A stretch of DNA of 64,000 nucleotides from Dokdonia sp. 4H-3-7-5 (GTDB lineage: Bacteria > Bacteroidota > Bacteroidia > Flavobacteriales > Flavobacteriaceae). Position numbers and translations under genes: made by a program. The DNA lies in the NCBI RefSeq assembly GCF_000212355.1, contig NC_015496.1:1872501-1936500 (forward strand), given 5' to 3'. This document shows positions 2,202-53,290 of this stretch, in pieces; position 1 is the first letter of the stretch, and each line of letters opens with the position of its first letter. Under the pieces are notes generated by a model. The model was not told the DNA's origin and searched no databases. It saw only the letters and a program-made list of their open reading frames with translations.

Positions 2202-5063
2202 ATGAAAATCACACGTCTTATAGCCCTTATTGCGCTGGTAACTATTACATTCTCGTGTAAGCAAGAAAGTGAGGAGAATACCGCTTTCGCGAAAGCGGAA
2301 ACCCCACAATTCAACGTTCCATTTGAAAAGTTTACGCTAGATAATGGACTTACCGTAATCTTACATCAAGACGACTCAGATCCAGTAGTTGCAGTAGCAC
2401 TTACCGCACACGTAGGATCTGCAAGAGAGATAGAAGGACGTACAGGTTTTGCTCACTTATTTGAGCACTTATTATTTTTAGAATCTGAAAACCTTGGAAA
2501 AGGTGGGCTTGATGCAATGAGCGCGCGTATTGGTGGTTCTGGAGCAAACGGATCTACGAGTCGTGATCGCACAAACTATTTTCAAACAGTGCCAAAAGAT
2601 GCTCTTGAAAAAATGATTTGGGCAGAGGCAGATAAGCTTGGATACTTCATAAATACGGTAACAGATCCAGTTCTTGCAAAAGAAAAGCAGGTGGTAAAGA
2701 ATGAAAAAAGGCAGTCTGTGGATAACCGTCCTTATGGTCACGCACGTTATGTGGTAGGGAAGAACCTTTATCCAGAAAACCATCCTTATAACTGGCAGGT
2801 AATAGGCTCATTAGAAGATTTACAAAATGCAACACTACAAGATGTAAAAGATTTTTATAATCGCTGGTACACGCCTAATAATACAACGCTTACGATCGCT
2901 GGAGATTTTGATATTGCGCAAACTAAGGAGTGGGTGGAAAAATATTTTGGAGAAATTCCAAGAGGAGAAGAAGTTCCAGCAATGGAAAAGCAACCTGTTA
3001 CAGTAGCAAATACAAAGCGACTCTATTATGAAGATAACTTTGCTAGATTACCACAACTATCAATGACGTGGCCTACGGTGCCTAATTATGATAAGGACTC
3101 TTATGCACTTGAAGTGCTGGCTAGTTATCTTTCTAAAGGCAAGAATGCGCCGTTCAATAAGATTTTAATTGATGAGAAGCAGCTTACGGCTGGTGTGAGA
3201 ATGTTCAATTTTGGTTCTGAAATCGCAGGAGAATTTGGTTTAAGCGTCAATGCATATCCTGGTAAAGATCTTGATGATGTACTTGTAGGAATTAATGAGG
3301 CTTTTACAAAATTTGAACTTGAGGGAATCTCACAAAAAGATTTAGACAGAATTAAAGCAGGGCAAGAAACACAGTTTTATAATGGCTTATCAAGTGTATT
3401 AGGAAAAGGATTTCAGCTAGCGCAGTATGAGATTTTTGCTGGGGATCCTGCATACATCACAGAAGATGTAGATCGTATTCTTGCAGTGACTAAGGAAGAT
3501 GTACAACGCGTTTACGAGCAGTACATTAAAGGGCATAATTATATTGCTACTAGTTTTGTGCCTATAGGTCAAACAACACTTGCACTTGAAGATTCTGATC
3601 TTGCACAAGTAGTAGAAGAAAAGATAGTAGAAGGAGCAGAGGAGACATTTGATGCGAGTATCGCAGCAGATTATGAGCGTACTCCTTCGTCCTTTGATCG
3701 TAGTGAGGAGCCTGCATATGGCAAAACTGCTGAAGTTACTGTTCCTAATGTTTGGGAAGACAAACTTTCTTCTGGACTTGAAGTGTATGGTATCGAAAAT
3801 GACGAAGTACCACTTGTGCAATTTCAGATGAATATACGTGGAGGATTACTTTTAGAGGATATCAATAGAGTAGGCGTTTCCAGTTTGCTAGCAGATTTAC
3901 TTATGAAGGGAACTGCCACAAAAACTACTGCAGCACTTGAAAATGAGATTGAAAGCCTTGGAGCAAATATTTACACGTACTCAGACAAAGAGAATATATA
4001 CATAGGCGGGAATACACTGGCTAAAAACTATGATAAAACCATTGCCTTGGTTCAAGAAATCCTCTTGCAGCCGCGCTGGGATAAGACAGAGTTTGACTTA
4101 TTAAAGCAGAGTACCTTAAGTCGTCTGGAGCAGCAACAGGCAAACCCTAATAGTATTGCAGCTATACAATTTGATAAATTAATTTATGGAGAGCGTAGCC
4201 TACTAGCTCAAAACAGCTTAGGAACTCCAGCTTCTGTAAATGCAATTACGCTTGAGGATCTAAAGAGTTATTATAACAATTATGTAGTTCCTAATGTTGC
4301 TAAAATGCAAGTAGTAGGTGCTGTAGGTAAAGAAAAAGCAACTACAGTACTCGCAGGTCTTAATGATAATTGGGAGGCTAGAGAATTTACAATTCCTGTA
4401 GTAGAGGTTCCTAAGGCTCCGGAGCAGTCTAACGTATATTTTTATGATGTGCCAGATGCAAAGCAGTCTGTACTTCGTTTTGGATACCCAGCAATGGCAG
4501 AAACCGATAAAGATTTTTATCCAGCACAAATGATGAACTACCGTTTAGGTGGTGGTGGTTTTGCCTCACAACTTACACAGAAACTTAGAGAAGGAAAAGG
4601 ATATACTTATGGCATACGTTCAGGTTTTTCTGGATCTACACTTCCTGGAGCGTTTGCTGTCTCGAGTGGAGTACGTTCTAATGTAACTTATGAGTCTACT
4701 GCACTCGTAAAGGATATTCTTAAAAACTATGGGAAGAACTTCACACAACAAGATCTTGACGTGTCTAAAAGTTTTCTACTAAAAAGTCAAGCGCGTGCTT
4801 TTGAAACTATGGGAGCAAAGCTAAATATGCTAGATGATATTGCAAACCTGGGTATATCTCCAGATTATATCAAGGAACGCCAGGCTATCGTAGAGAATAT
4901 GACAGTAGAAGAAATCAAGAAACTATCAGATAAATATCTTAATCCAGATAAAATGATATACTTGATAGTAGGTGATAAGAAAACACAGATGGATAAACTA
5001 GAGCAGCTAGGTTATGGTACTCCTATACTTTTGAATGAGAGTAAAGAACCTGTAAAGAACTAG
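2202..5063 (+). CDS. M16 family zinc metallopeptidase lipoprotein, two-domain
   Basis: This is a 953-residue secreted peptidase of the pitrilysin/M16 family. A lipoprotein signal ends at TFSC (Cys19). The zinc motif HLFEH is at residues 85-89, with the distal Glu ligand in the EKQVVKNEKR segment about 75 residues later. The second half (from about residue 510) is a non-catalytic M16 domain that keeps the Arg/Tyr segment REGKGYTYG used to clamp substrate. The length fits one chain carrying both halves. It probably degrades peptides in the periplasm or at the outer membrane. Residues 28-32 (AFAKA), just after the lipid anchor, are encoded by a copy of the iterated palindrome. A terminator follows. 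Confidence 0.93.
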   Translation: MKITRLIALIALVTITFSCKQESEENTAFAKAETPQFNVPFEKFTLDNGLTVILHQDDSDPVVAVALTAHVGSAREIEGRTGFAHLFEHLLFLESENLGKGGLDAMSARIGGSGANGSTSRDRTNYFQTVPKDALEKMIWAEADKLGYFINTVTDPVLAKEKQVVKNEKRQSVDNRPYGHARYVVGKNLYPENHPYNWQVIGSLEDLQNATLQDVKDFYNRWYTPNNTTLTIAGDFDIAQTKEWVEKYFGEIPRGEEVPAMEKQPVTVANTKRLYYEDNFARLPQLSMTWPTVPNYDKDSYALEVLASYLSKGKNAPFNKILIDEKQLTAGVRMFNFGSEIAGEFGLSVNAYPGKDLDDVLVGINEAFTKFELEGISQKDLDRIKAGQETQFYNGLSSVLGKGFQLAQYEIFAGDPAYITEDVDRILAVTKEDVQRVYEQYIKGHNYIATSFVPIGQTTLALEDSDLAQVVEEKIVEGAEETFDASIAADYERTPSSFDRSEEPAYGKTAEVTVPNVWEDKLSSGLEVYGIENDEVPLVQFQMNIRGGLLLEDINRVGVSSLLADLLMKGTATKTTAALENEIESLGANIYTYSDKENIYIGGNTLAKNYDKTIALVQEILLQPRWDKTEFDLLKQSTLSRLEQQQANPNSIAAIQFDKLIYGERSLLAQNSLGTPASVNAITLEDLKSYYNNYVVPNVAKMQVVGAVGKEKATTVLAGLNDNWEAREFTIPVVEVPKAPEQSNVYFYDVPDAKQSVLRFGYPAMAETDKDFYPAQMMNYRLGGGGFASQLTQKLREGKGYTYGIRSGFSGSTLPGAFAVSSGVRSNVTYESTALVKDILKNYGKNFTQQDLDVSKSFLLKSQARAFETMGAKLNMLDDIANLGISPDYIKERQAIVENMTVEEIKKLSDKYLNPDKMIYLIVGDKKTQMDKLEQLGYGTPILLNESKEPVKN
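2281..2298. repeat. Iterated palindrome copy 1 (inside M16 gene)
   Basis: Perfect 18-nt palindrome CCGCTTTCGCGAAAGCGG. It lies in the linker after the lipobox, encodes AFAKA in frame, and interrupts no recognised motif. Confidence 0.9.
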
Positions 5064-5084
5064 AAACTCAAATCTCTTAATTAT

Positions 5085-5117
5085 AAAAAGCGAACTCTTG
5101 ATGGAGTTCGCTTTTTT
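5085..5117. terminator. Bidirectional intrinsic terminator
   Basis: A 13-bp stem (AAAAAGCGAACTC paired with GAGTTCGCTTTTT) closes a short loop, with A and T tracts on opposite sides. It lies between the convergent M16 and EamA genes and can serve both. Confidence 0.9.
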
Positions 5118-5120
5118 TAT

Positions 5121-5137
5121 GCTTTCGCGAAAGCGTA
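5121..5137. repeat. Iterated palindrome copy 2 (intergenic)
   Basis: GCTTTCGCGAAAGC core plus a right-hand GTA flank, three bases after the terminator. The left TAC flank is degenerate. Confidence 0.9.
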
Positions 5138-6468: not shown

Positions 6469-6487
6469 ACGCTTTCGCGAAAGTGTA
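6469..6487. repeat. Iterated palindrome copy 3 (intergenic)
   Basis: ACGCTTTCGCGAAAGTGTA, one mismatch from the perfect palindrome, seven bases from the rodA stop codon. Confidence 0.88.
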
Positions 6488-6493: not shown

Positions 6494-7753
6494 TTACCAC
6501 TCGTTTACTCTATTACCATCTAGTTTTACAAAGATGAATAGTAAAATAGTGAAGCCCCATAATCCTGATCCTCCGTAACTGAAAAACGGCAAAGGAATTC
6601 CTACCGTAGGTAAGAGACCTATGACCATCCCAATGTTTACTACAAAGTGAATGAATAAAATTCCTGCGAGGCTGTATCCATAAATGCGCGAGAAGTCATT
6701 TTTTTGTTTTTCTGATAGTTGGATGATCCTCAAAATAAGCACTACAAATAAGATGATTACTAGGGTACTCCCAAGGAAACCCCACTCTTCACCAACTGTT
6801 GAGAAAATATAATCTGTGTGTTGTTCTGGTACAAACTTACCTTTAGTTTGTGTTCCTTCTAGAAACCCTCTTCCAAACCAGCCACCATTACCTATGGCAA
6901 TCTCACTTTGCTGTGTATTATATCCTATACTTTTTGCATCTACCTCTTTACCCAAAACAATATTAAAACGGTCGCGGTGACGTTGCTCGAAGATATTTTC
7001 GAAAATGTAGTTTACAGAAAATGCAAAAAGACATGCTGCTGCAACAAGACCTATATAAAGACGTTTTGAGGGTCGTTTTTTTCTATTTCTAGCAAACAGT
7101 ATCAAGGCAATCACAAGAACAATTAGAGACACATAAATAGGTCCTAAAACTAGTGTAAGCACAAATAACGTAATCGTAGATGCTCCTAGAATTAAATAAC
7201 TAGCAGCAAGTCCCTCTCTATATAGCGGAAAGAAAAATGCAGCATAAACTAATGCACTTCCAGGATCTGGTTGTGGCACAATGATAAGTGCTGGTATTGC
7301 TATAATAGCAAGAGCACGTACTTGATCTTTTATGGTTTTTATATTGGTTTGTATGTCGCTCAGATATTTGGCGAGTGCTAGTGCGGTAGCGGCTTTGGCA
7401 AATTCACTAGGCTGCAAACTCATAAAACCGAGATTGTACCAACTTGTTGCCCCAGATATAGTCTTACCAAAAACAAACAATAATATTAATGACAGCAACG
7501 AGCCTATGTAAATGACACTAGAGAATCGCTCAAAGAATTTTGAGTCTAAGAAGAGAATAAACGTAATGATAAGAAAGCCTAGAAATATCCACACAAGTTG
7601 CTTGAAGTACAAGTTATTCATACTTGCAAAAGCTTGTGTATCTGGATCAAAGGCAGCAGAGTAAATATTAACCCAGCCTATAGCTACGAGGGCTAAGTAT
7701 AATAAAATAAGTACCCAGTCAAAACTACCAACATTCCTTGTAAAACGGCTCAT
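6494..7753 (-). CDS. rodA: Rod-shape determining protein RodA (SEDS glycosyltransferase)
   Basis: This 419-residue polytopic membrane protein of the FtsW/RodA/SpoVE family polymerises lipid II glycan strands for side-wall growth. It has about ten membrane helices. Family segments seen are LQPSEFAKAATALALAKYL, the periplasmic-loop WGFLGS and the C-terminal GLLPTVGIPLPFFSYGGSGL signature. It overlaps the PBP2 stop codon by one base, so the two are translationally coupled, as expected for partners of one synthase complex. It is the last gene of the mre operon and is followed by the iterated palindrome and a shared terminator. Confidence 0.97.
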   Translation of the reverse strand: MSRFTRNVGSFDWVLILLYLALVAIGWVNIYSAAFDPDTQAFASMNNLYFKQLVWIFLGFLIITFILFLDSKFFERFSSVIYIGSLLSLILLFVFGKTISGATSWYNLGFMSLQPSEFAKAATALALAKYLSDIQTNIKTIKDQVRALAIIAIPALIIVPQPDPGSALVYAAFFFPLYREGLAASYLILGASTITLFVLTLVLGPIYVSLIVLVIALILFARNRKKRPSKRLYIGLVAAACLFAFSVNYIFENIFEQRHRDRFNIVLGKEVDAKSIGYNTQQSEIAIGNGGWFGRGFLEGTQTKGKFVPEQHTDYIFSTVGEEWGFLGSTLVIILFVVLILRIIQLSEKQKNDFSRIYGYSLAGILFIHFVVNIGMVIGLLPTVGIPLPFFSYGGSGLWGFTILLFIFVKLDGNRVNEW

Positions 7754-12075: not shown

Positions 12076-12095
12076 TACGCTTTCGCGAAAGCGTA
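12076..12095. repeat. Iterated palindrome copy 4 (purH-mreB gap), perfect 20-mer
   Basis: Perfect full-length form TACGCTTTCGCGAAAGCGTA, in the gap between purH and mreB. Confidence 0.95.
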
Positions 12096-16189: not shown

Positions 16190-16613
16190 GTTAGTCCGCG
16201 TCCTGATAGGTGGATTGTTATTGTTGGGATTGTTGTATGTACGCTTTCGCGAAAGCGAACTATTCTACGATCCGCTTATTGATTACTTCCATGGTGATTA
16301 TCAGAATAAGGCATTGCCCGAACTAGCGCAAGGGAAGTTCTTTTTAAATGTACTCTTGAGGTATTTCATCAACATGCTACTGTCTCTCGGAATTTTATGG
16401 GCAGTTTTTACAGATAGGAGTATTTTAAAATTCACGAGTATATTTTACTTGATAGTTTTGGTGATATTATTATTGCCGTTTTACTACTTACTACATCATC
16501 ATAACCCTTCAGAATATCTGCCGTTATTCTACGTGCGTAGATTCTTAATACAGCCATTGTTGATTTTTCTCTTATTACCTGCTTTTTTTTATTACCGTAA
16601 GGTTGATAAATAG
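16182..16613 (+). CDS. Exosortase F system-associated membrane protein
   Basis: This 143-residue protein has four predicted helices. A conserved N-terminal segment (FYDPLIDYFHGDYQNKALP) and its position 8 bases overlapping xrtF identify the partner usually found with XrtF in flavobacteria. The RFRESELF stretch near residues 23-30 is encoded by a copy of the iterated palindrome, at the edge of the first helix. Its function is unknown; tight coupling suggests it works in the same sorting complex. Confidence 0.85.
   Translation: MNKLVRVLIGGLLLLGLLYVRFRESELFYDPLIDYFHGDYQNKALPELAQGKFFLNVLLRYFINMLLSLGILWAVFTDRSILKFTSIFYLIVLVILLLPFYYLLHHHNPSEYLPLFYVRRFLIQPLLIFLLLPAFFYYRKVDK
16240..16258. repeat. 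Iterated palindrome copy 5 (inside XrtF-partner gene)
   Basis: TACGCTTTCGCGAAAGCGA, read in a frame giving VRFRESE, different from the AFAKA frame of other coding copies. Confidence 0.9.
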
Positions 16614-19439: not shown

Positions 19440-20210
19440 ATGAAAAATATATTTATAGTCTTATTGGTGACATTCGCTTTCGCGAAAGCGCACTCACAAG
19501 GACCACCACTTACCGCAGATAAACCTATCATGCTAGGTGGCGGAAGTTTTATAGCAAAAACACTTACCGAAATACGCGTTTCAGAAGACGGGACAGCAAC
19601 TCGCGTACCTCTTATGCTACACTATTTACCTACGTCAAACACGCTTGTAGCGGTGCATTTACCTTACGTAACTTATGATTATGACGATTTTCGCGGAAGC
19701 GGAAGTACATTAGGTGACATCAACATTATAGGTAAGTATCAGTTTTATAGAAAAGATGGAACGGGTAAAACCTTCCGAATGGTTGCCAAAACATTACAGA
19801 CCTTACCTACCGGAGAAGCTCTCGATATTGAAGGTATAAGTACTGGTAAGTATTCTGGGTATTATGGAGTAGTCGCGGGTTATGAATCGCTCAAATATGG
19901 TGTTTCTAATGAAGTGGGGTATAACTGGGTGCCAGATGGATCTCTTGATAAGTTGGTTTATAAATTAGGATTTGGATTACCATTGCTTAAACCTACGTAT
20001 CCTGTAAATCAGCTCAATTTATATTTTGAATATTCTAGCGAGTGGTTTTTAGAGCGTGATCAATTTGAATTGCTGTATGCTCAAGGAATCCAGTACGCAA
20101 GAAAACAATGGACATGGGAAGCAGGAGTTCAAGTACCGCTTAGCCAAAACGTTCCTGAGGCAATAGAGAGAAAATATTCTATATACTTAGGAACACGTTT
20201 TATACTTTAA
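19440..20210 (+). CDS. Outer-membrane beta-barrel protein, transporter-like
   Basis: I place the start at ATG 19440, seven codons inside the longest frame, because it gives a standard signal peptide (MKNIFIVLLVTFAFAKAHSQ, cut near AHSQ). The 256-residue product is a beta-barrel of the same loose 'transporter' class as the protein at 17734, but lacks the Met-rich runs. Part of its signal peptide (FAFAKA) is written by a copy of the iterated palindrome. It probably works with the neighbouring metal-binding proteins at the outer membrane. Confidence 0.72.
   Translation: MKNIFIVLLVTFAFAKAHSQGPPLTADKPIMLGGGSFIAKTLTEIRVSEDGTATRVPLMLHYLPTSNTLVAVHLPYVTYDYDDFRGSGSTLGDINIIGKYQFYRKDGTGKTFRMVAKTLQTLPTGEALDIEGISTGKYSGYYGVVAGYESLKYGVSNEVGYNWVPDGSLDKLVYKLGFGLPLLKPTYPVNQLNLYFEYSSEWFLERDQFELLYAQGIQYARKQWTWEAGVQVPLSQNVPEAIERKYSIYLGTRFIL
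19475..19490. repeat. Iterated palindrome copy 6 (inside signal peptide of barrel gene)
   Basis: CGCTTTCGCGAAAGCG encodes AFAKA at the end of the signal peptide of the gene at 19440. Confidence 0.9.
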
Positions 20211-22807: not shown

Positions 22808-22827
22808 TACGCTTTCGCGAAACCGTA
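22808..22827. repeat. Iterated palindrome copy 7 (3' of metal cluster)
   Basis: TACGCTTTCGCGAAACCGTA, one mismatch from the perfect 20-mer, beginning at the stop codon of the last cluster gene. Confidence 0.88.
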
Positions 22828-24632: not shown

Positions 24633-24652
24633 TACGCTTTCGCGAAAGCGAA
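24633..24652. repeat. Iterated palindrome copy 8 (groS-groL gap)
   Basis: TACGCTTTCGCGAAAGCGAA, near perfect, inside the groSL operon just after the groS stop codon. Confidence 0.92.
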
Positions 24653-25447: not shown

Positions 25448-26371
25448 TTAATCTTTTTGTTCTTCAAGTTGTTCTACTGCTCGAATTTGGTCTGCAAAGA
25501 AACCACTTTTTTCTGGATATTTCAAACTTAAAATTCGGTATGCTTGTTTTGCTTTTGGAAAGTTTTTTTGCTCGACATAAACTCGTGCTAAAGTCTCTGT
25601 CATCAAGGCGTCAGAAGAAAATAGAAATTCTTTTTTTGTTTTCTTTTTATCTGCCGGTATTGACTTTATATTTCCAATTTTCGGATTTGTTTCTATAAAG
25701 GAATCTATAATTTGTTGTTTTCGCTTTCGCGAAACTTTAGTTGTAGTTTCCTCATTATCAGATTTTGATGCGGTTGTAGTTTCCTTTTTAATTACTACTT
25801 CTTTTGTAGAAGTAGGAGCAGGAACCTCTTTGTCATCAGATGTAGATGAGCGATCTATGGGTTGAAAAGAAGAAAGCTGTAACCACTCAGAAAAAGAATG
25901 CGCTTCAGATTTTGTAAAAGGTAGTGGCTTGCCTACTTGAAGCGTATGCTCTGCCTTTGCTCTAGTCATAATAGAGTCTTTCTTTTCTACAAATAAATCT
26001 GGATCAAGAATTTGCGATGCTTTTGCTTGTTCTTCTTGCTCGACTAGAATAGATACATCTTGTGCATCTGTGACTTCTAGAGACCGTAGTTGTTTTTCTT
26101 GATCTTTTATTTGAGTACTTACCGCTGTCTGTAAGAAATGCTCTGACGTGATATAGTCAAATAGTACGGCTCTATCTGCTGTGTGGCTAGCTGTGCGCTT
26201 TAATGCTTTGTTATAAGCAAAGCTCTCTTGGTTTTTTAACCCTTTTAGATACAGCGCATGAGCACTTTGAAAGAAAGGAAATGCGTCAATAATAGTGCGC
26301 AAATGGCTTGTCTGCTCAGTATTAATCTGGTCAGGATGTTCTAGTAAATATGTGTATTGTTCTGTAGTCAT
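25448..26371 (-). CDS. Conserved protein of the lptE-secG block, TPR-like C-terminus
   Basis: This 307-residue protein has an N-terminal helical region (YLLEHPDQINTEQ, then FPFFQSAHALYLKGL), a low-complexity Ser/Thr/Glu/Lys middle (about 115-245) and a C-terminal TPR-like unit (TETLARVYVEQKNFPKAKQAY). The start overlaps the lptE stop in an ATG/TAA arrangement. It is always beside lptE and secG in flavobacteria as I recall, suggesting an envelope role, but none is known. The KVSRKRK stretch in the linker comes from the iterated palindrome. Confidence 0.78.
   Translation of the reverse strand: MTTEQYTYLLEHPDQINTEQTSHLRTIIDAFPFFQSAHALYLKGLKNQESFAYNKALKRTASHTADRAVLFDYITSEHFLQTAVSTQIKDQEKQLRSLEVTDAQDVSILVEQEEQAKASQILDPDLFVEKKDSIMTRAKAEHTLQVGKPLPFTKSEAHSFSEWLQLSSFQPIDRSSTSDDKEVPAPTSTKEVVIKKETTTASKSDNEETTTKVSRKRKQQIIDSFIETNPKIGNIKSIPADKKKTKKEFLFSSDALMTETLARVYVEQKNFPKAKQAYRILSLKYPEKSGFFADQIRAVEQLEEQKD
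25722..25735. repeat. Iterated palindrome copy 9 (inside low-complexity linker)
   Basis: CGCTTTCGCGAAAC, shortened on the right, encoding SRKR on the minus strand in the disordered linker of the gene at 25448. Confidence 0.8.
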
Positions 26372-29532: not shown

Positions 29533-29552
29533 TACGCTTTCGCGAAAGCGTT
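29533..29552. repeat. Iterated palindrome copy 10 (miaB to sigma-54 activator gap)
   Basis: TACGCTTTCGCGAAAGCGTT, one base from perfect, in the gap between miaB and the activator gene. Confidence 0.92.
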
Positions 29553-32931: not shown

Positions 32932-32947
32932 TACGCTTTCGCGAAAG
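32932..32947. repeat. Iterated palindrome copy 11 (intergenic)
   Basis: TACGCTTTCGCGAAAG plus C, with the right arm ending in TG, seven bases after the stop codon of the gene at 32155. Confidence 0.88.
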
Positions 32948-32964
32948 CTGCTATAAACAGACCT

Positions 32965-34891: not shown

Positions 34892-35010
34892 TCGTTTTTT
34901 GTTTTAGAATTATAAAATTTGATTGGTACCAACCGCTAAACTAGTGGTTTAGTTTTGTCATTCTTAAAGGATTTCCTTTTTTTGAGCGTTTTTTTTTTTT
35001 GATTTTTTAT

Positions 35011-35030
35011 TACGCTTTCGCGAAAGCGTA
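35011..35030. repeat. Iterated palindrome copy 12 (upstream of topA), perfect 20-mer
   Basis: Perfect full-length TACGCTTTCGCGAAAGCGTA in the 290-base gap between the lipoprotein and topA, beside a T13 run. The gap also has a CTAAAC-TAGTG-GTTTAG hairpin at 34936-34952. Confidence 0.95.
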
Positions 35031-35121
35031 ACAACTCCATAAAACAGTGATTTGCGATGCTTCAAAAAGTGAAATATCACAGAAATAATGCCCTTGCGGA
35101 TTACGATATAAATAAAACATC

Positions 35122-43595: not shown

Positions 43596-43631
43596 ATAAG
43601 CCACCTAAGCAATACGTTTAGGTGGTTTTTT
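43596..43631 (+). terminator. Intrinsic terminator after gldN
   Basis: GCCACCTAA pairs with TTAGGTGGT around a short loop, followed by an eight-base T run. Confidence 0.88.
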
Positions 43632-43675
43632 TATTTTATAAATCTCAGACTGATAAAAAGGAAGACGGTGCGCAC

Positions 43676-43704
43676 TTTGTGAGCCTACTATTCCTGTATT
43701 TTTG
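43676..43704 (+). promoter_or_regulatory. Promoter of FAD oxidoreductase gene, probable leaderless transcript
   Basis: TTTG (43676-43679) and TATTTTTG (43697-43704) match both Bacteroidota elements with 17 bases between them. The GTG start at 43709 begins five bases after the -7 box, so the transcript would start at about the start codon. Confidence 0.6.
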
Positions 43705-43708
43705 TAAG

Positions 43709-44764
43709 GTGAAAGAAGTAGATTATATTATCGTAGGTCTTGGGCTGGCAGGTATCGCATTTTGTGAAGAGTGCGAGCGCAATGGTAAGTCTTTTATTGT
43801 CATAGATAAAGGAACAGAAGGCGCAAGCCGTGTAGCAGCTGGTTTGTATAACCCAGTAATTTTAAAGCGATACTCACTGCCTTGGAAGGCTATTGAGCAA
43901 TTTGACCTTGCAATACCATATTTCAGAAATTTAGAAGAGAAACTCGGCGAGTCGTTCATGTATGAATTGCCCGTGCGCAAAGTATTCCATTCTATCGAAG
44001 ATCAAAATAATTGGTTTACAGCAAGTGATAAGCCTGGATTGGAGCGGTTTGTGAAAACTGCGATAGTAAAGGAAGAGCGTGAGGAGATTTCGGCACCATT
44101 TAATTATGGGGAGGTGCTTGAGACAGGTAGAGTTGCAATCACAAAACTCCAGACGTCATATGAGCAATACCTTGTTGATAAGTCCGCTTTCGCGAAAGCG
44201 GTATTTGATTATGACTTATTACAATTACAAGACTCATCAGTAACATATGATGGCTACAAAGCCTCTCGAATTGTCTTTGCCGAAGGTTATGGAGTGAAGC
44301 AAAACCCTTACTTCGGGAAATTGCCATTAGTTGGTAATAAGGGAGAATACATAATTATCAGTGCTCCACAATTACAATTAAATGCAGCAATTAAATCTTC
44401 ATTCTTTATCGTTCCATTAGGAAACGATCTTTATAAAGTAGGTGCAACTTATAATTGGACAGATAAAGATTGGGAAGCGACAACAGAAGCTCGTGAAGAG
44501 CTTTTAGAAAAGCTTGACGCACTAATTAATGTTTCTTATGCAGTCGTCGATCAAGAGGCGGGCGTGCGTCCTACGACGGGGGATAGAAGACCACTCCTTG
44601 GTGTTCACCCTATCTACAACCAGCTAGCCATATTAAATGGATTAGGCACAAGAGGAATCATGGCAGGTCCTCTGCTAGCGAAGTATCTCTATAATTTTTT
44701 AGAGCATCAAGAAGCACTCCCTGCTGAATTGGATGTGATGCGTTTTCCTAAAAAATTCAAGTAG
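43709..44764 (+). CDS. FAD-dependent oxidoreductase, D-amino-acid oxidase family
   Basis: I start this gene at GTG 43709, where the Rossmann motif VDYIIVGLGLAGIAFCEE begins; the longer frame would cross the gldN terminator. The 351-residue product has the DAAO-type FAD domain (IVIDKGTEGASRVAAGLYNP) and the C-terminal RPTTGDRRPLLG and NGLGTRGIMAGP motifs. It oxidises an amine or amino acid, substrate unknown. Residues encoded near 44184-44201 (SAFAKAV) come from an iterated palindrome in a variable loop. Confidence 0.87.
   Translation: MKEVDYIIVGLGLAGIAFCEECERNGKSFIVIDKGTEGASRVAAGLYNPVILKRYSLPWKAIEQFDLAIPYFRNLEEKLGESFMYELPVRKVFHSIEDQNNWFTASDKPGLERFVKTAIVKEEREEISAPFNYGEVLETGRVAITKLQTSYEQYLVDKSAFAKAVFDYDLLQLQDSSVTYDGYKASRIVFAEGYGVKQNPYFGKLPLVGNKGEYIIISAPQLQLNAAIKSSFFIVPLGNDLYKVGATYNWTDKDWEATTEAREELLEKLDALINVSYAVVDQEAGVRPTTGDRRPLLGVHPIYNQLAILNGLGTRGIMAGPLLAKYLYNFLEHQEALPAELDVMRFPKKFK
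44184..44201. repeat. Iterated palindrome copy 13 (inside FAD oxidoreductase gene)
   Basis: CCGCTTTCGCGAAAGCGG, same 18-nt form as the M16 copy, encoding AFAKA in frame. Confidence 0.92.
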
Positions 44765-45252: not shown

Positions 45253-47163
45253 ATGCTTAATATTCATAACCTTTCTGTCTCTTTTCAAGGCGAATATCTT
45301 TTTGAAGAAATCACCTTCCGTCTTAATGGAGGAGATCGCGTGGGGCTTGTAGGTAAAAATGGTGCAGGTAAGTCTACTATGTTGCGCATTATTTCTGGCG
45401 AGCAACCTTATGATACTGGATCTATAGCTATTGAAAAAGAGATAAGTATTGGTTTTCTTAAGCAGGATATTGACTTTGTAGAAGGAAGAACCGTTCTTCA
45501 AGAATCTTATGAAGCTTTTAAAGAAATTAAGGAGCTAGAAGGCAAACTTGAGGAGATTAATAGTCAGCTAGCTACTCGTACAGATTATGAGAGTGAGGGA
45601 TATAACCAGTTAATGATTGACATAAACGATGTGCAACATCAATATGAGGTGCATGGAGGTTATAACTATAAAGGAGAGACAGAACGTATCCTTCAGGGAC
45701 TAGGTTTTAAACGTGAAGATTTTGATAAGCTTACAGATACTTTTTCTGGAGGATGGCGCATGCGTATTGAGCTTGCAAAGCTATTACTTCAAAACCATGA
45801 CATCCTATTACTGGATGAGCCTACAAACCACTTAGATATAGAATCTATTATTTGGCTTGAGACCTTCTTAAAAGGATATTCTGGAGCTGTAGCAATTGTG
45901 TCGCACGATAAAATGTTCTTAGACAATGTTACAAATCGTACTATTGAGATTTCTTTAGGACGTATTTATGATTACCCCAAACCATACACAGAGTACCTAG
46001 TCTTACGTAAAGAATTAAGAGAGCAGCAACTTGCTTCTCAGAAAAACCAGCAAAAGCAAATAGAGCAAACGGAGAAACTCATTGAGAAATTCCGTGCAAA
46101 AGCATCTAAGGCAACTATGGCACAATCTCTTATTAAGAAGCTTGATAAGATAGATCGCATTGAAGTAGATGAGGATGATAATAGTGTGATGACATTAAAA
46201 TTTCCAGTATCCGTTACTCCAGGAAAAGTGGTGGTAGAGGCAAACGATGTTGAGAAAAGTTATGGGGATAAGACAGTACTACAAGGGATAGATTTACTTG
46301 TAGAAAGAAATACAAAGACTGCCTTTGTAGGGCAAAATGGTCAAGGCAAATCTACACTTGCTAAAATTATAGTAGGAGAACTAGCGCACCAAGGTGATGT
46401 AAAGTTAGGACACAATGTGCAAATAGGATACTTCGCTCAAAATCAAGCAGAATACCTAGACGGCTCAAAAACCGTTGAGGAAACAATGATCGATGCGGCA
46501 GATGAACGCACTAGGCCGCTTGTGCGTAATATTTTAGGTTCTTTTCTTTTTAGGGGTGAAGAAGTAGATAAATATGTGCGTGTACTTTCTGGAGGTGAGC
46601 GTAACAGACTTGCACTTGCAAAATTGATGTTGCAGCCTTTTAATGTGCTTGTGATGGATGAGCCTACTAACCACCTCGACATAAAATCTAAGAATGTTTT
46701 AAAGGATAGTCTTAAGCAGTTTGAAGGAACCCTTATTGTAGTATCTCACGATCGTGATTTCTTACAAGGACTTACAGATCGCGTTTATGAATTTAAAGAC
46801 CACCGTATACGTGAATTTCTGGGTGATGTAGATCATTATCTTGAACAGCGCGAGGTGTCAAACTTACGCGAGATAGAAAAGAGAGATGTCATCAAAAAAG
46901 AGGCGCCAGCAAAAAGCTCTAAAAAATCATACGAAGATCAGAAGAAGCTTAAATCACTTAATAATAGGTTGAGTAAGGTGGAATCTAATATCAACAAACT
47001 TGAAAGAGAAGTTAAGCAACTTGATGCTGAGCTTGCAACTAATTATGATGAGACCGTTGCGAAGCCAGATTTTTTTGATAATTATAACGGCAAAAAAAAG
47101 AAGCTAGATGGGTATATGGAAGACTGGGGCAAAATCACAGAAGAGCTCGACGCTTTGAACTAA
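45253..47163 (+). CDS. ABC-F family ATPase (ribosome-associated type)
   Basis: This 636-residue soluble protein has two ABC cassettes. Walker A motifs are GKNGAGKST (about 36-44) and GQNGQGKST, with signatures FSGGWRM and LSGGERNR. An arm/linker helix pair lies between the cassettes (about 235-305), and a C-terminal coiled coil follows (about 545-630). There are no membrane helices, so it acts on the ribosome as a translation or antibiotic-protection factor rather than as a pump. The subtype is nearest Uup-like. Confidence 0.93.
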   Translation: MLNIHNLSVSFQGEYLFEEITFRLNGGDRVGLVGKNGAGKSTMLRIISGEQPYDTGSIAIEKEISIGFLKQDIDFVEGRTVLQESYEAFKEIKELEGKLEEINSQLATRTDYESEGYNQLMIDINDVQHQYEVHGGYNYKGETERILQGLGFKREDFDKLTDTFSGGWRMRIELAKLLLQNHDILLLDEPTNHLDIESIIWLETFLKGYSGAVAIVSHDKMFLDNVTNRTIEISLGRIYDYPKPYTEYLVLRKELREQQLASQKNQQKQIEQTEKLIEKFRAKASKATMAQSLIKKLDKIDRIEVDEDDNSVMTLKFPVSVTPGKVVVEANDVEKSYGDKTVLQGIDLLVERNTKTAFVGQNGQGKSTLAKIIVGELAHQGDVKLGHNVQIGYFAQNQAEYLDGSKTVEETMIDAADERTRPLVRNILGSFLFRGEEVDKYVRVLSGGERNRLALAKLMLQPFNVLVMDEPTNHLDIKSKNVLKDSLKQFEGTLIVVSHDRDFLQGLTDRVYEFKDHRIREFLGDVDHYLEQREVSNLREIEKRDVIKKEAPAKSSKKSYEDQKKLKSLNNRLSKVESNINKLEREVKQLDAELATNYDETVAKPDFFDNYNGKKKKLDGYMEDWGKITEELDALN

Positions 47164-47173: not shown

Positions 47174-47191
47174 ACGCTTTCGCGAAAGCGA
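47174..47191. repeat. Iterated palindrome copy 14 (after ABC-F gene)
   Basis: ACGCTTTCGCGAAAGCGA, eleven bases after the stop codon of the ABC-F gene. Confidence 0.92.
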
Positions 47192-47233: not shown

Positions 47234-47509
47234 ATTCGTTACTACTTTCGGTTCGCTAAAAGAACATGGATCGCACTTACTACATATTAAGCCAGTAATT
47301 TGGAATTTCTTTACATTGTACTTAAGCTAGAAGTAATTGGATTGTAATTTAAAATAGTAAGAATAAAACTTTTTTTTAAGAACTAATTAACAAGACCCGG
47401 TCGATTACATAGGTAGCTTTGTTTTTTTGATGCCAAAGTATCACAATTAACTAAAATTTAAAGTTTGTTAACTCATTTGAGAGACTTGACTTTAACCTAA
47501 AATAATTAA

Positions 47510-48637
47510 ATGCGTAACATAATACTCTCTGTAATAGGTGTGCTCGTAATTGTAGGAGCTATTTTTGCCGCTATTAAAATTAGTGAAAGCAATGACAAAC
47601 CAAAACCTGAAGTAAAAAAGGTTGTTAAAACTGTTTTTGTAGAAGAAGTAAAAAATGGAACAGTACCAATCACCATACCAGCAAATGGCTCATTGGTTGC
47701 AAAAAATAGGCTAGAATTATATGCCGAGGTTCAAGGGGTTTTTCGAAGTAGTGCACATGATTTTAAAGCAGGTCAATCATATAGAAGAGGCGAGACCTTG
47801 ATACGCATAGACGGTGCAGAGTTTAATGCCTCTATACAATCTGCTCGAAGCGAATTTTCAAACCTTCTCACTTCTTTAATGCCAGATCTACGTTTAGATT
47901 ACCCAGAAGCTTTTCCGCAATGGCAAGAATATCTAGAAAAATTTAGTGTTGACAAAAGTATACCTGACCTTCCAGAAATCACTTCTGATAATGTAAGATA
48001 TTTCATAACAGGGCGTGGAGTATCTGCAGCCTACTACAACATCAAGAATTTAGAGCAGCGTTCTTATAAATATAGAATAACAGCACCATTTTCTGGAATA
48101 GTAACGGAAGCTTTAGTGACGAACGGAACTTTAATAAGGCAAGGTCAAAAGTTAGGTGAATTTATCGATACCTCTGTCTTTGAACTTGAATTATCTATAA
48201 GTAAAAACTTGAGTGACCTTCTCAAAATTGGAGAGGATGTGAGCCTAAAAACTGTAAATGGTAATAAATCATATACTGGTAAGGTAGTTCGTGTTAATGG
48301 AAGAGTAGATCAAGCTACACAAACAATCGGTGTTTTTGTACAAGTGGATGGAGACGACTTAAAAGAAGGAATGTATCTTGAATCCTTGCTTGAAGCAAAA
48401 AATGAACAAAATGCAATTGAGCTTTCTAGAAAATTACTTGTAGATCAAAACAAAATTTTTGTTCTTAAGGATAGTATTCTTGATGTTATGGAAGTTAATC
48501 CTGTATATTTTTCTCCAGATAAAATGGTTGTTAAAGGTATCCCAGATGGAACTAAGGTTTTATCTAAATCTGTTCCAGGAGCATACGCAGGTATGTTAGT
48601 AAAGGAGAATAAAGAACAAACACAAACCCCAGAATGA
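47510..48637 (+). CDS. RND efflux periplasmic adaptor (membrane-fusion protein)
   Basis: This 375-residue adaptor has one N-terminal anchor helix and a lipoyl half-motif near YAEVQGVF. A short helical hairpin (about 95-180) and beta-barrel/lipoyl parts with RITAPFSGIVTEALVTNGTL follow. It joins the RND pump to the outer-membrane duct. It overlaps the pump gene by four bases and opens the three-gene efflux operon. No TetR repressor gene is adjacent, although such pumps often have one. Confidence 0.95.
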   Translation: MRNIILSVIGVLVIVGAIFAAIKISESNDKPKPEVKKVVKTVFVEEVKNGTVPITIPANGSLVAKNRLELYAEVQGVFRSSAHDFKAGQSYRRGETLIRIDGAEFNASIQSARSEFSNLLTSLMPDLRLDYPEAFPQWQEYLEKFSVDKSIPDLPEITSDNVRYFITGRGVSAAYYNIKNLEQRSYKYRITAPFSGIVTEALVTNGTLIRQGQKLGEFIDTSVFELELSISKNLSDLLKIGEDVSLKTVNGNKSYTGKVVRVNGRVDQATQTIGVFVQVDGDDLKEGMYLESLLEAKNEQNAIELSRKLLVDQNKIFVLKDSILDVMEVNPVYFSPDKMVVKGIPDGTKVLSKSVPGAYAGMLVKENKEQTQTPE

Positions 48638-51600
48638 AAAAAATAATAAGTTATTTTATAAGATATTCGGTAGCTGGGAATGTTCTAATTCTAGCCTTTG
48701 TAATCTTTGGGGTTGCAGGTATATTGCAGCTTAAGTCATCCTTTTTTCCTTTACAGGAAGCCGAAATTATTAATATTAATGTTACTTATCCAGGTGCAGC
48801 TCCTCAAGAAATAGAAGAAGGTGTTGTACTTAAAATTGAGGATAACCTTAAAGGTTTAATAGGGGTTGAACGTGTGACCTCTACTTCACGAGAAAGTGGT
48901 GGGAGTATTACTGTAGAAATTGAAACGGATGAGAATATTGATGATATGCTTGCCGAGGTAAAAAATGCAGTTGATAGAGTGCCTAACTTTCCGACAGGTA
49001 TGGAACCTCTTGTGGTATCAAAACAAGAGCAAATACGTCAAACTATTGATTTTGCAATAAGTGGTGAGAATATTGAATTAAGTGCGCTTAAGAATATAGC
49101 TAGAGATATTGAAAATGACCTTAGGGCCATGGATGGTATTTCACAAATAAATATATCTGGATACCCACAAGAGGAAATCGAAATTGCTGTCCGAGAAAAC
49201 GATCTTCTTGCGTATGATCTCACATTTGTAGAAGTCGCACAAGCTGTAAGTCGAGCAAATATCCTTACGACAGGTGGTAATATCAAAACTGATGCAGAAG
49301 ATTATCTTATAAGGGCTAGTAACCGTGTTTATTATGGTAATGAGCTTAATAATATTGTTGTGCGATCACAACAAGATGGAACCACAGTGCGACTTCAAGA
49401 TGTTGCCGATGTAAGCGATCGATTTTCTGAAACTCCAAATGCCTCTTACTTTAATGGTAATATGGCAGTTAATATTGAAATAACAAATACTAATAGTGAA
49501 GATCTCATAACGACAGCAGATCAAGTAAACGAGTATATTTTAGAATTCAATGAAAAGTATACGGGTATACACATTGACGTAGTAAGTGATTCATCTATAC
49601 GTCTAAATGAACGCACAAATCTGCTTATTGAAAATGGAGCTGTTGGAATTATTCTTGTTTTAGTCTTTCTATCCTTTTTTCTAAACACAAGACTAGCTTT
49701 TTGGGTAGCCTTTGGGTTGCCTATATCCTTTTTAGGAATGTTTATTTTTGCCGACTCATTTGATGTTACTATTAATGTGCTGTCGTTATTTGGAATGATC
49801 ATCGTGATAGGGATTCTAGTAGACGATGGTATTGTGATTTCAGAGAATATCTATCAGCATTTTGAAATGGGGAAATCTCGCACACAAGCCGCGATAGATG
49901 GAACAATGGAAGTACTGCCGCCGATTATAGCAGCAATCACAACAACTATACTTGCTTTTTCTACATTCCTATTTTTGGATGGGCGGATAGGTAATTTTTT
50001 TGGCGAAGTCTCCGTTATTGTAATATTAACACTGGTGGTTTCTCTAGTAGAGGCATTAGTAATCCTTCCCGCACACATTGCACACTCAAAAGCACTTATA
50101 CCTGACGATGAAATTTCTATCAAGGATAAAAAGGGAATAGATAAACTCTTATTTAAACTAAGAAAATATAATGAGTACGGTGATCAAATGATGCGTTATC
50201 TGAGGGATAAAGTATATAGTCCCATACTGAGATTTGCTTTGCAACAACGTTTTGTGACTTTTGCAATACTTGCTGCTCTTATGATCTTAACTATAGGGAG
50301 TATAAGTGGAGGAATTATACGTACAGCCTTTTTTCCAAATATTGCTAGTGATAGGGTAAGTATTAACCTATTGATGCCAGAAGGTACTAATCCAAAGATT
50401 ACAGATAGTATTATAACATCAATTGAGACAGCTGTGTGGGTTGTAAATGAGGATTATACTGCAAGACAATCAGGTAACAAACAGGTAGTCGAAAACATTA
50501 TAAAGCGTGTAGGACCGGGTAACAATAAAGCTTCTTTAAATGTTAACTTGCTTCCGGGTGAAGAAAGAGATTTTGCTTCCCAAGAAATAACAAACTCAAT
50601 ACGAGAACAGGTAGGGGAAGTTTATGGAGTAGAATTGTTAACATTTGGGTCTGGAGGAAATTTTGGAGGTAGTCCTGTTTCAGTTTCTATTTTGGGTAAT
50701 AATACTGAAGAATTAAAAGCTGTTAAACAAGAGCTTAGGACGTATATGGAGACAAATCCATTACTAGCAGATGTGACAGACACAGATCCAGAGGGTATTA
50801 AAGAAATTAATGTAGAGCTTAATGAAACTGCATATGCTCTTGGTTTAAATCTTGCGGATGTAATGTCTCAAATAAGAGCAGGCTTTTTTGGTCTACAAGC
50901 TCAACGTTTTCAGAGAGGTCAAGATGAAATACGAGTTTGGGTCAGGTATGCACGTTCTGATAGGGAATCAATAAATGATCTTGATGAAATGCGAATTGTA
51001 ACTCCTAGTGGACAAAGAGTTCCTTTTGCTGAAATTGGCACTTATGAAATTATGCGTAGTGACGAGTCAATACGACACCTTAACGGCCTTAGAGAAATTC
51101 AAGTGAATGCAGATCTTAAAGATCCCAAAGGTAGTCCTACAGAGATTTTGGCCACTATAGAGAATACAGTGATGCCAGACATACTCTCAAAATACCCAAC
51201 GGTAAGAGTAATATATGAGGGGCAAAATAGAGAGGCAAAAAAACTTACCGACTCCGCAGAGATTGTAGTTCCTGTGATTATATTTCTTATTTATATTGTG
51301 ATTGCTTTTACTTTCAGAAGCTACAGTCAACCTCTTTTATTGATTTTAATGATACCGTTTAGTCTTATAGCAGTGGGCTGGGGCCATTGGATTCACGATT
51401 TTCCTGTAAATATTCTTTCTGCCTTAGGTATTATTGCTTTGATAGGTATTATGGTTAATGATGGGTTGGTTCTTATTGGTAAGTTTAACTCATTTTTACG
51501 GGAAGGAATGGCATTTGACACTGCGTTATATGAGGCAGGGAGAACGCGTTTTAGAGCAATATTTCTTACATCAGTCACAACAATTGCCGGTATAGCTCCA

Positions 51601-51906
51601 TTGCTATTAGAAAAAAGTAGGCAGGCGCAGTTTCTTAAACCTATGGCAATATCTATAGCTTACGGAATTGGTATTGCTACAGTATTAACATTGATTATAC
51701 TTCCAATACTTTTATCATTTACAAATACGGTGAAGCAGAAGTCTAAGTGGTTGGTAACAAATGAAAAGGTCACTAAGGAAGAAGTAGAGCGTGCAATTAA
51801 GGAGATGAAAGAGGAGGAAGAGCATAATACTTCAAATGCTGCGATGGATGATAAAAATAGCTCAGACGGGGATGCTACCTTAATAAAACCACTTTATGAC
51901 AAATAG
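48634..51906 (+). CDS. RND efflux pump permease (inner membrane)
   Basis: This 1090-residue pump has 12 membrane helices and two large periplasmic loops. The proton-relay aspartates are in ILVDDGIVISENIYQ, and the duplicated ALGIIALIGIMVNDG lies in the second half. The substrate class (drug, acid or metal) is not settled. The C-terminal extension (about 1045-1090) is Glu- and Asp-rich. It overlaps the adaptor by four bases and the duct gene by eleven. Confidence 0.96.
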   Translation: MKKIISYFIRYSVAGNVLILAFVIFGVAGILQLKSSFFPLQEAEIININVTYPGAAPQEIEEGVVLKIEDNLKGLIGVERVTSTSRESGGSITVEIETDENIDDMLAEVKNAVDRVPNFPTGMEPLVVSKQEQIRQTIDFAISGENIELSALKNIARDIENDLRAMDGISQINISGYPQEEIEIAVRENDLLAYDLTFVEVAQAVSRANILTTGGNIKTDAEDYLIRASNRVYYGNELNNIVVRSQQDGTTVRLQDVADVSDRFSETPNASYFNGNMAVNIEITNTNSEDLITTADQVNEYILEFNEKYTGIHIDVVSDSSIRLNERTNLLIENGAVGIILVLVFLSFFLNTRLAFWVAFGLPISFLGMFIFADSFDVTINVLSLFGMIIVIGILVDDGIVISENIYQHFEMGKSRTQAAIDGTMEVLPPIIAAITTTILAFSTFLFLDGRIGNFFGEVSVIVILTLVVSLVEALVILPAHIAHSKALIPDDEISIKDKKGIDKLLFKLRKYNEYGDQMMRYLRDKVYSPILRFALQQRFVTFAILAALMILTIGSISGGIIRTAFFPNIASDRVSINLLMPEGTNPKITDSIITSIETAVWVVNEDYTARQSGNKQVVENIIKRVGPGNNKASLNVNLLPGEERDFASQEITNSIREQVGEVYGVELLTFGSGGNFGGSPVSVSILGNNTEELKAVKQELRTYMETNPLLADVTDTDPEGIKEINVELNETAYALGLNLADVMSQIRAGFFGLQAQRFQRGQDEIRVWVRYARSDRESINDLDEMRIVTPSGQRVPFAEIGTYEIMRSDESIRHLNGLREIQVNADLKDPKGSPTEILATIENTVMPDILSKYPTVRVIYEGQNREAKKLTDSAEIVVPVIIFLIYIVIAFTFRSYSQPLLLILMIPFSLIAVGWGHWIHDFPVNILSALGIIALIGIMVNDGLVLIGKFNSFLREGMAFDTALYEAGRTRFRAIFLTSVTTIAGIAPLLLEKSRQAQFLKPMAISIAYGIGIATVLTLIILPILLSFTNTVKQKSKWLVTNEKVTKEEVERAIKEMKEEEEHNTSNAAMDDKNSSDGDATLIKPLYDK

Positions 51907-53263
51907 ATTATATAGCGTGCCATTAATTTTGGTATTATTATGTGCTTATGTCAGCGCATTTGCTCAAGAACCCCAAACTCCATTTCTTTCTTCAGAGGAT
52001 GCAGTACGTGCCATGCTTACTAATAATTTTGGGATTCAGATCGCAAATAATAATGTAGGTGTAGCAGATAACAACACAAGTATTTTAAATTCTGATTATC
52101 TCCCTACTGTTTTTGGACAAGCAGGTGCAAATTTTGACAGAACTACGAGTACTACGGATTTTAATGGTGCTTTAGATAATGATGGAAATGCTCGTCCTAA
52201 TGTGGTTATACCAGACGCCGAAACTGTGCGTTATGATGCATCTATAAATGCAAGTTATACTCTTTTTGACGGTTTAGGTAGATTTTATAATTATAAACAG
52301 CTTAAGGAGCAATACAACCTATCACAGTTAGAGGCGAGAGAAACTATAGAAAACACCATGGTTCAGCTTTTTTCAGTGTATTATGAGGTTGCCCGTATAG
52401 AAGAAAATATAGCTGTTTTTGAAACTGCACTAGAGATTTCAAGAAAGCGTGAAACGCGTGCCCAGTATCAATTTGATTATGGGCAAGTTAATAAACTACA
52501 AATTCTAAATGCTCAAGTAGATATTGTAACAGATAGTATTAATTTATTAAATGCTAAACAGCAACTGCGCAACACACAACGTGATCTCAATGTAGTTCTT
52601 GCGGCCCCACTTGAAAATTTAAAAACAGCAGATACTACAGTGGCATTCGTAAGTCCGCTATTGATAGATAGTTATGTTGAGCAGGCAAGTGTAAATAATG
52701 TGAATTTATTGCAAGTTGAACAGGATATCATTATTTCAGATTATGAAATAAAAAAGGCAAAAGGACTCTTTTTGCCAACCATAGGGTTAACTGGTAGTTA
52801 TGGATGGAATCTCGCAAACAATCCTGCATCTGCTTTTTTTCCTGGAACTACTAGAAGTTCGACTAGTCTTGCTGCCGGGGCCAGCTTAAGCTGGAATATT
52901 TTTGATGGCGGCAGATCAATTGTAGGATTAAAAAATGCACGAATAGCTCTTGATAGTCAGAAGTTAATTAAAGAGCAGCTCAAGCAACAGGTTTACAGAG
53001 ACATTGCTAATGCAAAAGGAAATTATCAGAATGCACTAATGGTTTTTAGATTGCAAGAGCAAAATGTAATTACTAGCGAGGCTAATTTTGAGCGCTCATC
53101 AGAACAATTTAAATTAGGTCAAGTATCAAGTGTAGAGTTTCGTCAAGCACAATTAAATCTTCTTAATGCGCAGACTACCAAGAACGCTGCAAAGTATACA
53201 GCAAAGCTTGCAGAGATACAGTTATTACAGCTTACAGGTCAATTGCTTAATGTAGATTTTTAA
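51896..53263 (+). CDS. TolC-family outer-membrane efflux duct
   Basis: This 455-residue protein has a signal peptide ending near SAFAQ and two TolC repeats with long helices (AREYYEVARIEENIAVFE-type and the QEQNVITSEANFERSSEQFKLGQVSSVEFRQAQ pattern). It forms the outer-membrane tunnel of the tripartite pump. It starts eleven bases inside the pump gene and ends just before an iterated palindrome. Confidence 0.95.
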   Translation: MTNRLYSVPLILVLLCAYVSAFAQEPQTPFLSSEDAVRAMLTNNFGIQIANNNVGVADNNTSILNSDYLPTVFGQAGANFDRTTSTTDFNGALDNDGNARPNVVIPDAETVRYDASINASYTLFDGLGRFYNYKQLKEQYNLSQLEARETIENTMVQLFSVYYEVARIEENIAVFETALEISRKRETRAQYQFDYGQVNKLQILNAQVDIVTDSINLLNAKQQLRNTQRDLNVVLAAPLENLKTADTTVAFVSPLLIDSYVEQASVNNVNLLQVEQDIIISDYEIKKAKGLFLPTIGLTGSYGWNLANNPASAFFPGTTRSSTSLAAGASLSWNIFDGGRSIVGLKNARIALDSQKLIKEQLKQQVYRDIANAKGNYQNALMVFRLQEQNVITSEANFERSSEQFKLGQVSSVEFRQAQLNLLNAQTTKNAAKYTAKLAEIQLLQLTGQLLNVDF

Positions 53264-53274
53264 AACGTAGGTAG

Positions 53275-53290
53275 CGCTTTCGCGAAAGCG
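53275..53290. repeat. Iterated palindrome copy 15 (after efflux operon)
   Basis: CGCTTTCGCGAAAGCG with a following TA, eleven bases after the duct gene stop codon. It is the last copy seen before the tRNA and island. Confidence 0.93.

Follow-up and report, generated by a model that had tools for sequence, protein, structure and literature searches.

What keeps one long perfect palindrome at about a thousand places on a bacterial chromosome? The question is raised by a 64,000-nucleotide (nt) stretch of the genome of Dokdonia sp. 4H-3-7-5 (NC_015496.1, positions 1,872,501 to 1,936,500; hereafter the window), in which the core word TTTCGCGAAA occurs 15 times, against 0.05 expected and a maximum of 2 in 100 shuffles. 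An initial annotation of the window had listed 15 intact cores, most of them extended to palindromes of 16-20 nt, on an assumed G+C content of ~38% with fewer than one such 10-mer expected. All 15 were located where it placed them, within a few bases, and both the G+C content (~37%) and the expected count bear out its assumptions. Extended perfect palindromes make up 10 of the 15 copies, as it had held for most, although their range is 16-22 nt and the longest measures 22 nt.

Across the whole genome (3,389,993 bases, one contig), TTTCGCGAAA occurs 1012 times, compared with 10 for the reversed-word control. This ~100-fold excess is an over-representation of the highly iterated palindrome (HIP) type, and the early description of the word as a HIP1-like genome-wide palindrome was right in kind. 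A count in the genome and its relatives, which the same annotation had named as a check, thus came out far from random expectation, and all 18 Dokdonia genomes are rich in the word. The palindrome has the consensus TTACGCTTTCGCGAAAGCGTAA and a mean density of 0.30 per kb, or about one copy per 3 kb across the chromosome. Genome-wide counts given here are pattern searches, while sequence-level analyses cover 864 kb (25%) of the genome. We propose, with a probability of roughly 0.45, that TTACGCTTTCGCGAAAGCGTAA is the double-stranded recognition site of a putative homodimeric sequence-specific protein, present about every 3 kb chromosome-wide.

Anatomy of the site

Perfect 10-mer cores number 261 in the 864 kb sample versus 0.85 expected (~307-fold), whereas one-mismatch cores sum to 54 versus ~30 expected (~1.8-fold), a steep fall at one mismatch of the kind known from the uptake signal sequences (USS) and DNA uptake sequences (DUS) of naturally competent bacteria. 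For the 14-mer, 28 one-mismatch forms stand beside 188 perfect ones, with most mismatches in the two outermost positions of an arm. Half-sites outside palindromes are scarce, ranging from below expectation to a slight excess; 250 occurrences of the half-site word ACGCTTTCG and 179 of TACGCTTTCG fall inside palindromes. A half-site, Chi-type reading is disfavored by this scarcity. The palindrome behaves as a single, sharply recognized, all-or-none site.

The two arms vary independently. At arm positions 6-11 from the center, 918 of 1566 pairs are complementary compared with 925 +/- 13 after shuffling, so that the covariation expected of a hairpin was not found between the arms, and non-consensus complementary pairs are as frequent as in shuffled data (53 vs 55). 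Such independence argues against a hairpin and points to a recognition unit in each arm, so that the palindrome would be read in double-stranded form by a pair of identical subunits.

Around the palindrome lies a symmetric compositional footprint of ~52 bp, in which each strand is rich in T and G and poor in C on its 5' side, out to 26 bp from the center. The fraction of C in the 5' flank is 0.068 for intergenic and 0.088 for coding copies, compared with 0.154 at random intergenic points, and the bias drops off near 26-27 bp from the center in this and other Dokdonia genomes. The copies had been described as sharing no flanks; this common C-poor, T/G-rich 5' side contradicts that view. The signature is present in intergenic and coding copies alike, in other Dokdonia and in g10, one of two further genera of the family that carry the palindrome in numbers, and is weaker in the other, g162. 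It is equal on both replichores, which rules out a replication-strand cause. A raised mutation rate in the flanks was not seen in the comparison with G004, a Dokdonia relative.

Placement and spacing

With genes called by a simple open reading frame (ORF) heuristic, 119 of the 261 sampled copies are intergenic and 142 lie inside genes. No common gene type had been recognized for the copies in the window. In the larger sample, intergenic copies are densest in convergent gaps (2.37 per kb, compared with 1.26 in tandem and 1.11 in divergent gaps), and those in tandem gaps usually sit nearer the stop codon, the upstream stop being closer than the next start in 46 of 61 cases. Such a position would suit an RNA or DNA hairpin, for example a transcription terminator or an mRNA-stability element. 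However, there is no covariation between the arms, the T-rich side precedes and the A-rich side follows, which is the reverse of an intrinsic terminator, and 142 of 261 copies fall within genes; we consider a hairpin very improbable and reject it on the independence of the arms. An operator of a global transcription factor is just as doubtful a candidate: it would account for a dimeric palindromic site and for the 27 copies in divergent gaps, yet it sits poorly with the same intragenic majority and with a density that is lowest in divergent and highest in convergent gaps.

Coding copies favor particular contexts. In the first 464 kb sampled, the peptide frame AFAKA accounts for 44 of the 77 copies in coding sequence. 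An ORF start is also nearby more often than expected, at no more than 100 nt for 29 of 140 coding copies versus 13.8; several of these 29 look like signal peptides in their predicted translations. Intergenic DNA outside promoters may tolerate the sites, as may a small set of permissive peptide contexts, namely AFAKA, often within signal peptides.

The copies are also evenly spaced. Gaps between neighbors (n=240) have a coefficient of variation of 0.61 versus 1.00 under the null, the lowest of 2000 null runs reaching 0.82; 23 of the 240 gaps are shorter than 1 kb, where 70 are expected, and only 4 exceed 8 kb, where 18 are expected. Along the chromosome, density is under-dispersed (variance/mean 0.40 over 41 stretches), and across these 41 stretches of the 25% sample it neither rises nor falls systematically with distance from the origin inferred from skew (Spearman -0.09, p = 0.58). 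A replichore and spacing bias had been suggested as a check: the spacing bias was found, as evenness, while neither an origin-terminus trend nor a difference in flank signature between the replichores was.

Conservation and turnover

Across twelve Dokdonia relatives, 60 of the 74 window copies that could be aligned are retained, and in the reverse direction 59 of 76 copies of the relatives are present in the window; the alignments required 15 bp beyond each site, which favors conserved places. Retention is 13/13 in G006, 13/14 in G004, 9/10 in G001 and 7/9 in G016, the last two having an overall identity of only ~77%. G004, aligned over 235 kb (89.5% identity), retains 74 of the 77 own copies versus ~25 expected from identity alone, and four further copies occur in the relative only. 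Since shared copies are defined by their core, a zero rate of inner-core substitution is true by construction and is not used as evidence. Orthologous placement of own copies falls from 28/35 comparisons in G001 to 2/17 in g162 and 2/29 in g10 (two own sites being counted twice), a distant genus in which the word thus stands at nearly all-new places.

The seven differences from G004 comprise five single core substitutions and two own-only copies in gapped alignment. One own-only copy differs by a single transversion, and all four relative-only copies differ by a single C-to-T or G-to-A transition in CGCG, a pattern with too few cases (n=4) for a claim. Relatives that lack the copy at coding site 44192 have, apart from alignment noise, an unchanged length at the core. 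Alignments at intergenic sites are often gapped, so insertion is possible there. Judged from these alignments, copies appear to be gained and lost by point mutation in most, though not all, cases.

These comparisons bear on the suggestion of the initial annotation that the word is a short mobile repeat, of the REP (repetitive extragenic palindromic)/RAYT type or another insertion-type palindromic element. The sheer number of copies of a single palindromic word, its intergenic bias, the two gapped differences among the seven and the many intergenic sites in gapped alignments are what such a repeat would produce. Against this, siteless relatives show no length change at 44192, five of the seven differences are single substitutions, and the RAYT-type transposase (PF01797) has no match in Dokdonia sp. 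4H-3-7-5 and is absent in 10 of the 13 Dokdonia genomes searched. We regard mobility as the least credible of the explanations considered.

Copies missing in a relative sit nearer to a neighboring copy than those kept (median 1350 vs 2024 bp, n = 19 vs 198, p = 0.005; p = 0.03 on unique sites), which hints at diminishing returns from closely spaced copies.

Distribution across taxa and on islands

The 12-mer CTTTCGCGAAAG occurs 786 times in Dokdonia sp. 4H-3-7-5 and 383-937 times in all 18 Dokdonia genomes searched. In a family sample of 299 genomes and 203 genera, hundreds of copies are found only in Dokdonia (g1), g10 (586 and 685) and g162 (445), with 0-21 in the others; in a class sample of 247 genomes, none except Dokdonia sp. 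4H-3-7-5 exceeds 10. Named topA loci (80 kept) agree: 3-6 cores are present in seven of eight Dokdonia loci, the eighth, 6.6 kb long, having none; all five Leeuwenhoekiella loci lack a core, and four of the other 67 have one each. A TopA tree, which is a single-gene, quick-search tree, places g162 as sister to Leeuwenhoekiella (support 85), adjoining Dokdonia, with g10 far outside. The tree suggests a probable loss of the palindrome in Leeuwenhoekiella and its probable independent spread in g10. The Leeuwenhoekiella genomes G142 and G296 hold 34 and 24 copies of the 10-mer versus 21 and 18 for controls, and nine of ten examined among these 58 have a core flanked by GC on one or both sides; they are perhaps relics of a lost system. 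No comparable palindrome of their own was seen in other genera in the available loci, which are mostly mutually orthologous and small per genome.

Mutually similar stretches of seven other genomes also carry copies, and the two of these that are annotated encode copper/heavy-metal resistance. Retention of the word on such islands follows identity, at 28/28 for identities of at least 80%, 30/37 at 75-80%, 26/55 at 70-75% and 0/3 below (127 pairwise comparisons, each pair counted from both sides), and the comparisons show one- and two-mutation relics of the palindrome. One island, in G084, has at least 17 copies over 62 kb. The palindrome-bearing islands presumably come from hosts with the system. 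Related metal-resistance stretches in several genera (L051, L053-L059, L294-L306 and G084:C3:32333-94752) have Dokdonia-like spacing, with decayed beside intact copies. Among IMG/VR viral contigs, 41 stretches (L171-L211) contain the 16-mer, several of them more than once; these may be phages or prophages of hosts with the system.

Candidate readers and competing explanations

A comparison of proteins shared by the sampled quarter of the genome and the g10 and g162 samples, which covers a small part of each genome, yielded no evident DNA-binding candidate. Dokdonia sp. 4H-3-7-5 has a single PF02195 match, which speaks against a ParB/Noc paralogue as the reader; a G004 stretch contains parS-like words with two and three mismatches, so ParB need not read the palindrome. 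A link to a methyltransferase had also been proposed. It finds no support in the two families searched, neither of which provides a conserved match (other families were not searched): PF00145 is present in 26 of 46 genomes but absent in Dokdonia sp. 4H-3-7-5 and in 10 of 18 Dokdonia genomes overall, and PF01555 gives only a 40-position partial match under the cut-off in Dokdonia sp. 4H-3-7-5.

One alternative is a landmark for recombination or repair, or a self mark, whether Chi-like or repair-strand-like, in which machinery acting on DNA requires a mark no more than a few kb from any break or mismatch. The density of 0.30 per kb and the even spacing suit such a coverage role, as does the more frequent absence in relatives of copies with close neighbors, and T/G-rich 5' arms resemble sequences preferred by RecA-type proteins. 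Chi is oriented and read on one strand, however, and half-sites are scarce here; the methylation-directed model proposed for HIP1 would need a matching methyltransferase, and none is conserved in the two families. We judge this alternative improbable, though less so than the hairpin, operator and mobile-repeat explanations.

The main rival is a self-specific DNA uptake sequence, an analogue of USS/DUS, in which fragments bearing the palindrome are preferentially taken up and recombination spreads it. The scenario matches the regular spacing of the copies, their intergenic bias, the peptide frames in which they are tolerated, their turnover mainly through point mutation and their separate seeding in g10; ComEC is present in 20 of 20 genomes tested. 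The sharp drop from zero to one mismatch likewise matches known uptake sequences, two of which fall 92- and 82-fold at one mismatch, according to the available part of PMC1939737. Another species of the family is transformed preferentially by DNA of its own kind (PMC7965970); the uptake machinery of competent Flavobacteriaceae is not settled by that paper. Several observations weaken the rival. Firstly, the type IV pilus secretin (PF00263) is absent in 7 of the 13 Dokdonia genomes searched, all of them site-rich and Dokdonia sp. 4H-3-7-5 among them. Secondly, ComEC is found equally in siteless genera, which leaves the distribution of the palindrome unexplained. Finally, the two uptake sequences are described as not palindromes (PMC1939737, same part), whereas the Dokdonia word is palindromic. 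We consider an uptake sequence unlikely, but the most serious competitor.

The recognition site of a homodimer is therefore the explanation we favor. At the level of sequence, the patterns above demonstrate what reads as a dimer-type, sequence-specific double-stranded site with kilobase coverage, kept by selection or drive. A putative homodimer would dock on the ~52-bp site around the palindrome, and each copy would confer a slight advantage that hinges on a site lying no more than a few kilobases away. The reader would be an intracellular chromosome protein with a role in chromosome organization or maintenance. In a more tentative extension, which we hold to be possible, the palindrome is a new kind of chromosome-wide address, and the dimer, confined to a few genera of Flavobacteriaceae, gives the whole chromosome a periodic architecture or a surveillance grid, selection for kilobase coverage having seeded about a thousand near-identical palindromes, mostly by point mutation, and having done so again in a distant genus at nearly all-new positions. 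As first suggested, a site bound by the nucleoid, repair or replication machinery remains the best reading, although its binding protein was not found.

Several points weigh against this explanation. No reader protein was found, and the intracellular step is one that we infer for that reason. All features of spacing, placement and turnover are equally expected of a DNA uptake sequence. Outside palindromes, the half-sites ACGCTTTCG and TACGCTTTCG occur 8 and 6 times versus 3.5 and 1.3 expected, an excess of long half-sites that perhaps consists of relics. A simple dimer leaves the T/G bias of the flanks, which is specific to the strand, unexplained, and relative to G004 the flanks change at roughly background pace at positions 11-26. 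The effect of neighbor distance is modest, and the rows behind it are not mutually independent.

Copies and other features in the window

The window copies are listed in Table 1. Copy 13 also occurs in g162 at the same codons.

Table 1. Copies of the palindrome in the window, with their surroundings and retention in aligned relatives
Copy	Position	Palindrome	Location	Kept in relatives
1	2281..2298	18 nt, perfect	N-terminal region of M16-peptidase ORF 2202-5063	4/4
2	5121..5134	14 nt	Convergent gap	4/4
3	6472..6483	12 nt	Just 3' of FtsW/RodA-type ORF 6494-7753(-)	4/5
4	12076..12095	20 nt	3' of purH-type ORF 12112-13644(-)	4/4
5	16242..16257	16 nt	Within ORF 16182-16613 (no Pfam match)	8/8
6	19475..19490	16 nt	Signal-peptide-like stretch (FAFAKAH), ORF 19419-20210	3/3
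7	22813..22822	10-nt core (TACGCTTTCGCGAAACCGTA)	Convergent gap	3/4
8	24635..24650	16 nt	Tandem gap	4/5
9	25725..25734	10-nt core	Within ORF 25448-26371(-)	1/5 (least conserved copy)
10	29534..29551	18 nt	3' of MiaB gene 29592-31043(-)	6/6
11	32935..32948	14 nt	Convergent gap	2/2
12	35010..35031	22 nt	Divergent gap 5' of topA (35150-37696)	2/2
13	44184..44201	18 nt	Coding (SAFAKAV), MnmC-like oxidoreductase gene 43622-44764	10/12 Dokdonia relatives
14	47175..47190	16 nt	12 bp 3' of ABC-F gene 45253-47163	Outside conservation alignments
15	53275..53290	16 nt	12 bp 3' of outer-membrane efflux gene 51896-53263	5/10 (last window copy)

No copy lies in the final 10.7 kb of the window. The alignment with G004 ends at 55.7 kb although further sequence was compared, while that with G006 ends at 59.7 kb, near the end of its compared piece, and the pieces of three other relatives end at ~53.4 kb. 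Positions 55723-64000 are siteless and of lower GC, and contain an ORF just under the Pfam phage-integrase cut-off together with AAA_25 and DUF6371 proteins; by its content, this segment is probably a mobile element. A second segment, 47491-51684, is part of an HlyD/AcrB/outer-membrane-efflux operon and has 66.5% identity to G006, with flanks at 94% and 78%, which makes a replacement probable. Near the start of the efflux gene, a copy at the equivalent of ~51950 is present in 13 of 20 aligned rows and lacking in Dokdonia sp. 4H-3-7-5. A single, unrelated 16-nt perfect palindrome, TTCTGGCGCGCCAGAA, lies at 13285-13300.

Comparison with known systems

Judged by titles and abstract openings, none of the open-licence papers that contain TTTCGCGAAA deals with this palindrome, and CGCTTTCGCGAAAGC occurs in no open-licence paper; listings from the same literature on Dokdonia palindromes, HIP1 in Bacteroidetes, uptake sequences, motifs and the nucleoid in Bacteroidetes contained no matching report. 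The word fragment 'palindrom' does not occur in the available part of the Dokdonia genome paper (PMC3587595).

The palindrome shares features with several known systems. Uptake sequences occur in many copies and are commoner than expected in non-coding DNA, as the accessible part of PMC1939737 describes. The Dokdonia word resembles the USS of Pasteurellaceae and the DUS of Neisseriaceae in its many copies, non-coding excess, steep one-mismatch fall and extended flank preference, but is palindromic and occurs in a genome from which the type IV pilus secretin is missing. An extended flank preference is a property of both USS and DUS. Noc sites, the parS sites of ParB, SlmA sites and MatP sites are palindromic and are read by dimeric proteins on the chromosome; unlike these, the Dokdonia palindrome has ~1000 copies, no origin-terminus trend and a genome with one ParB-type protein. 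Chi sites are short, asymmetric sequences, oriented and read on one strand, that occur genome-wide at kilobase spacing. The Dokdonia word has the same genome-wide, kilobase-scale coverage, but its half-sites are scarce. REP elements, which go with RAYT transposases, are palindromic and intergenic; in contrast, no RAYT was found in the Dokdonia genome, and the clean coding site at 44192 has no insertion signature.

The nearest parallel is HIP1 (GCGATCGC) of cyanobacteria, likewise a perfect palindrome iterated genome-wide. The available part of PMC4390886 gives its density as about one per 1000 nt and presents a methylation-directed model. Palindromes of this highly iterated kind have been on record since HIP1, and what they do is still a matter of debate. 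Unlike HIP1, the Dokdonia word is 16-22 nt long with a ~52-bp compositional footprint and about a third of the HIP1 density, has a strong intergenic and even-spacing bias and conserved copies, and lacks a conserved methyltransferase in the two families searched. The Dokdonia case is cleaner in its long exact word, conserved copies and footprint edge, and in the existence of lineages with the word, without it, or with it only on imported islands; together, these features make the question of function testable here. Metal-resistance islands in other genera carry the palindrome, so the word may also serve as a dye for the origin of DNA.

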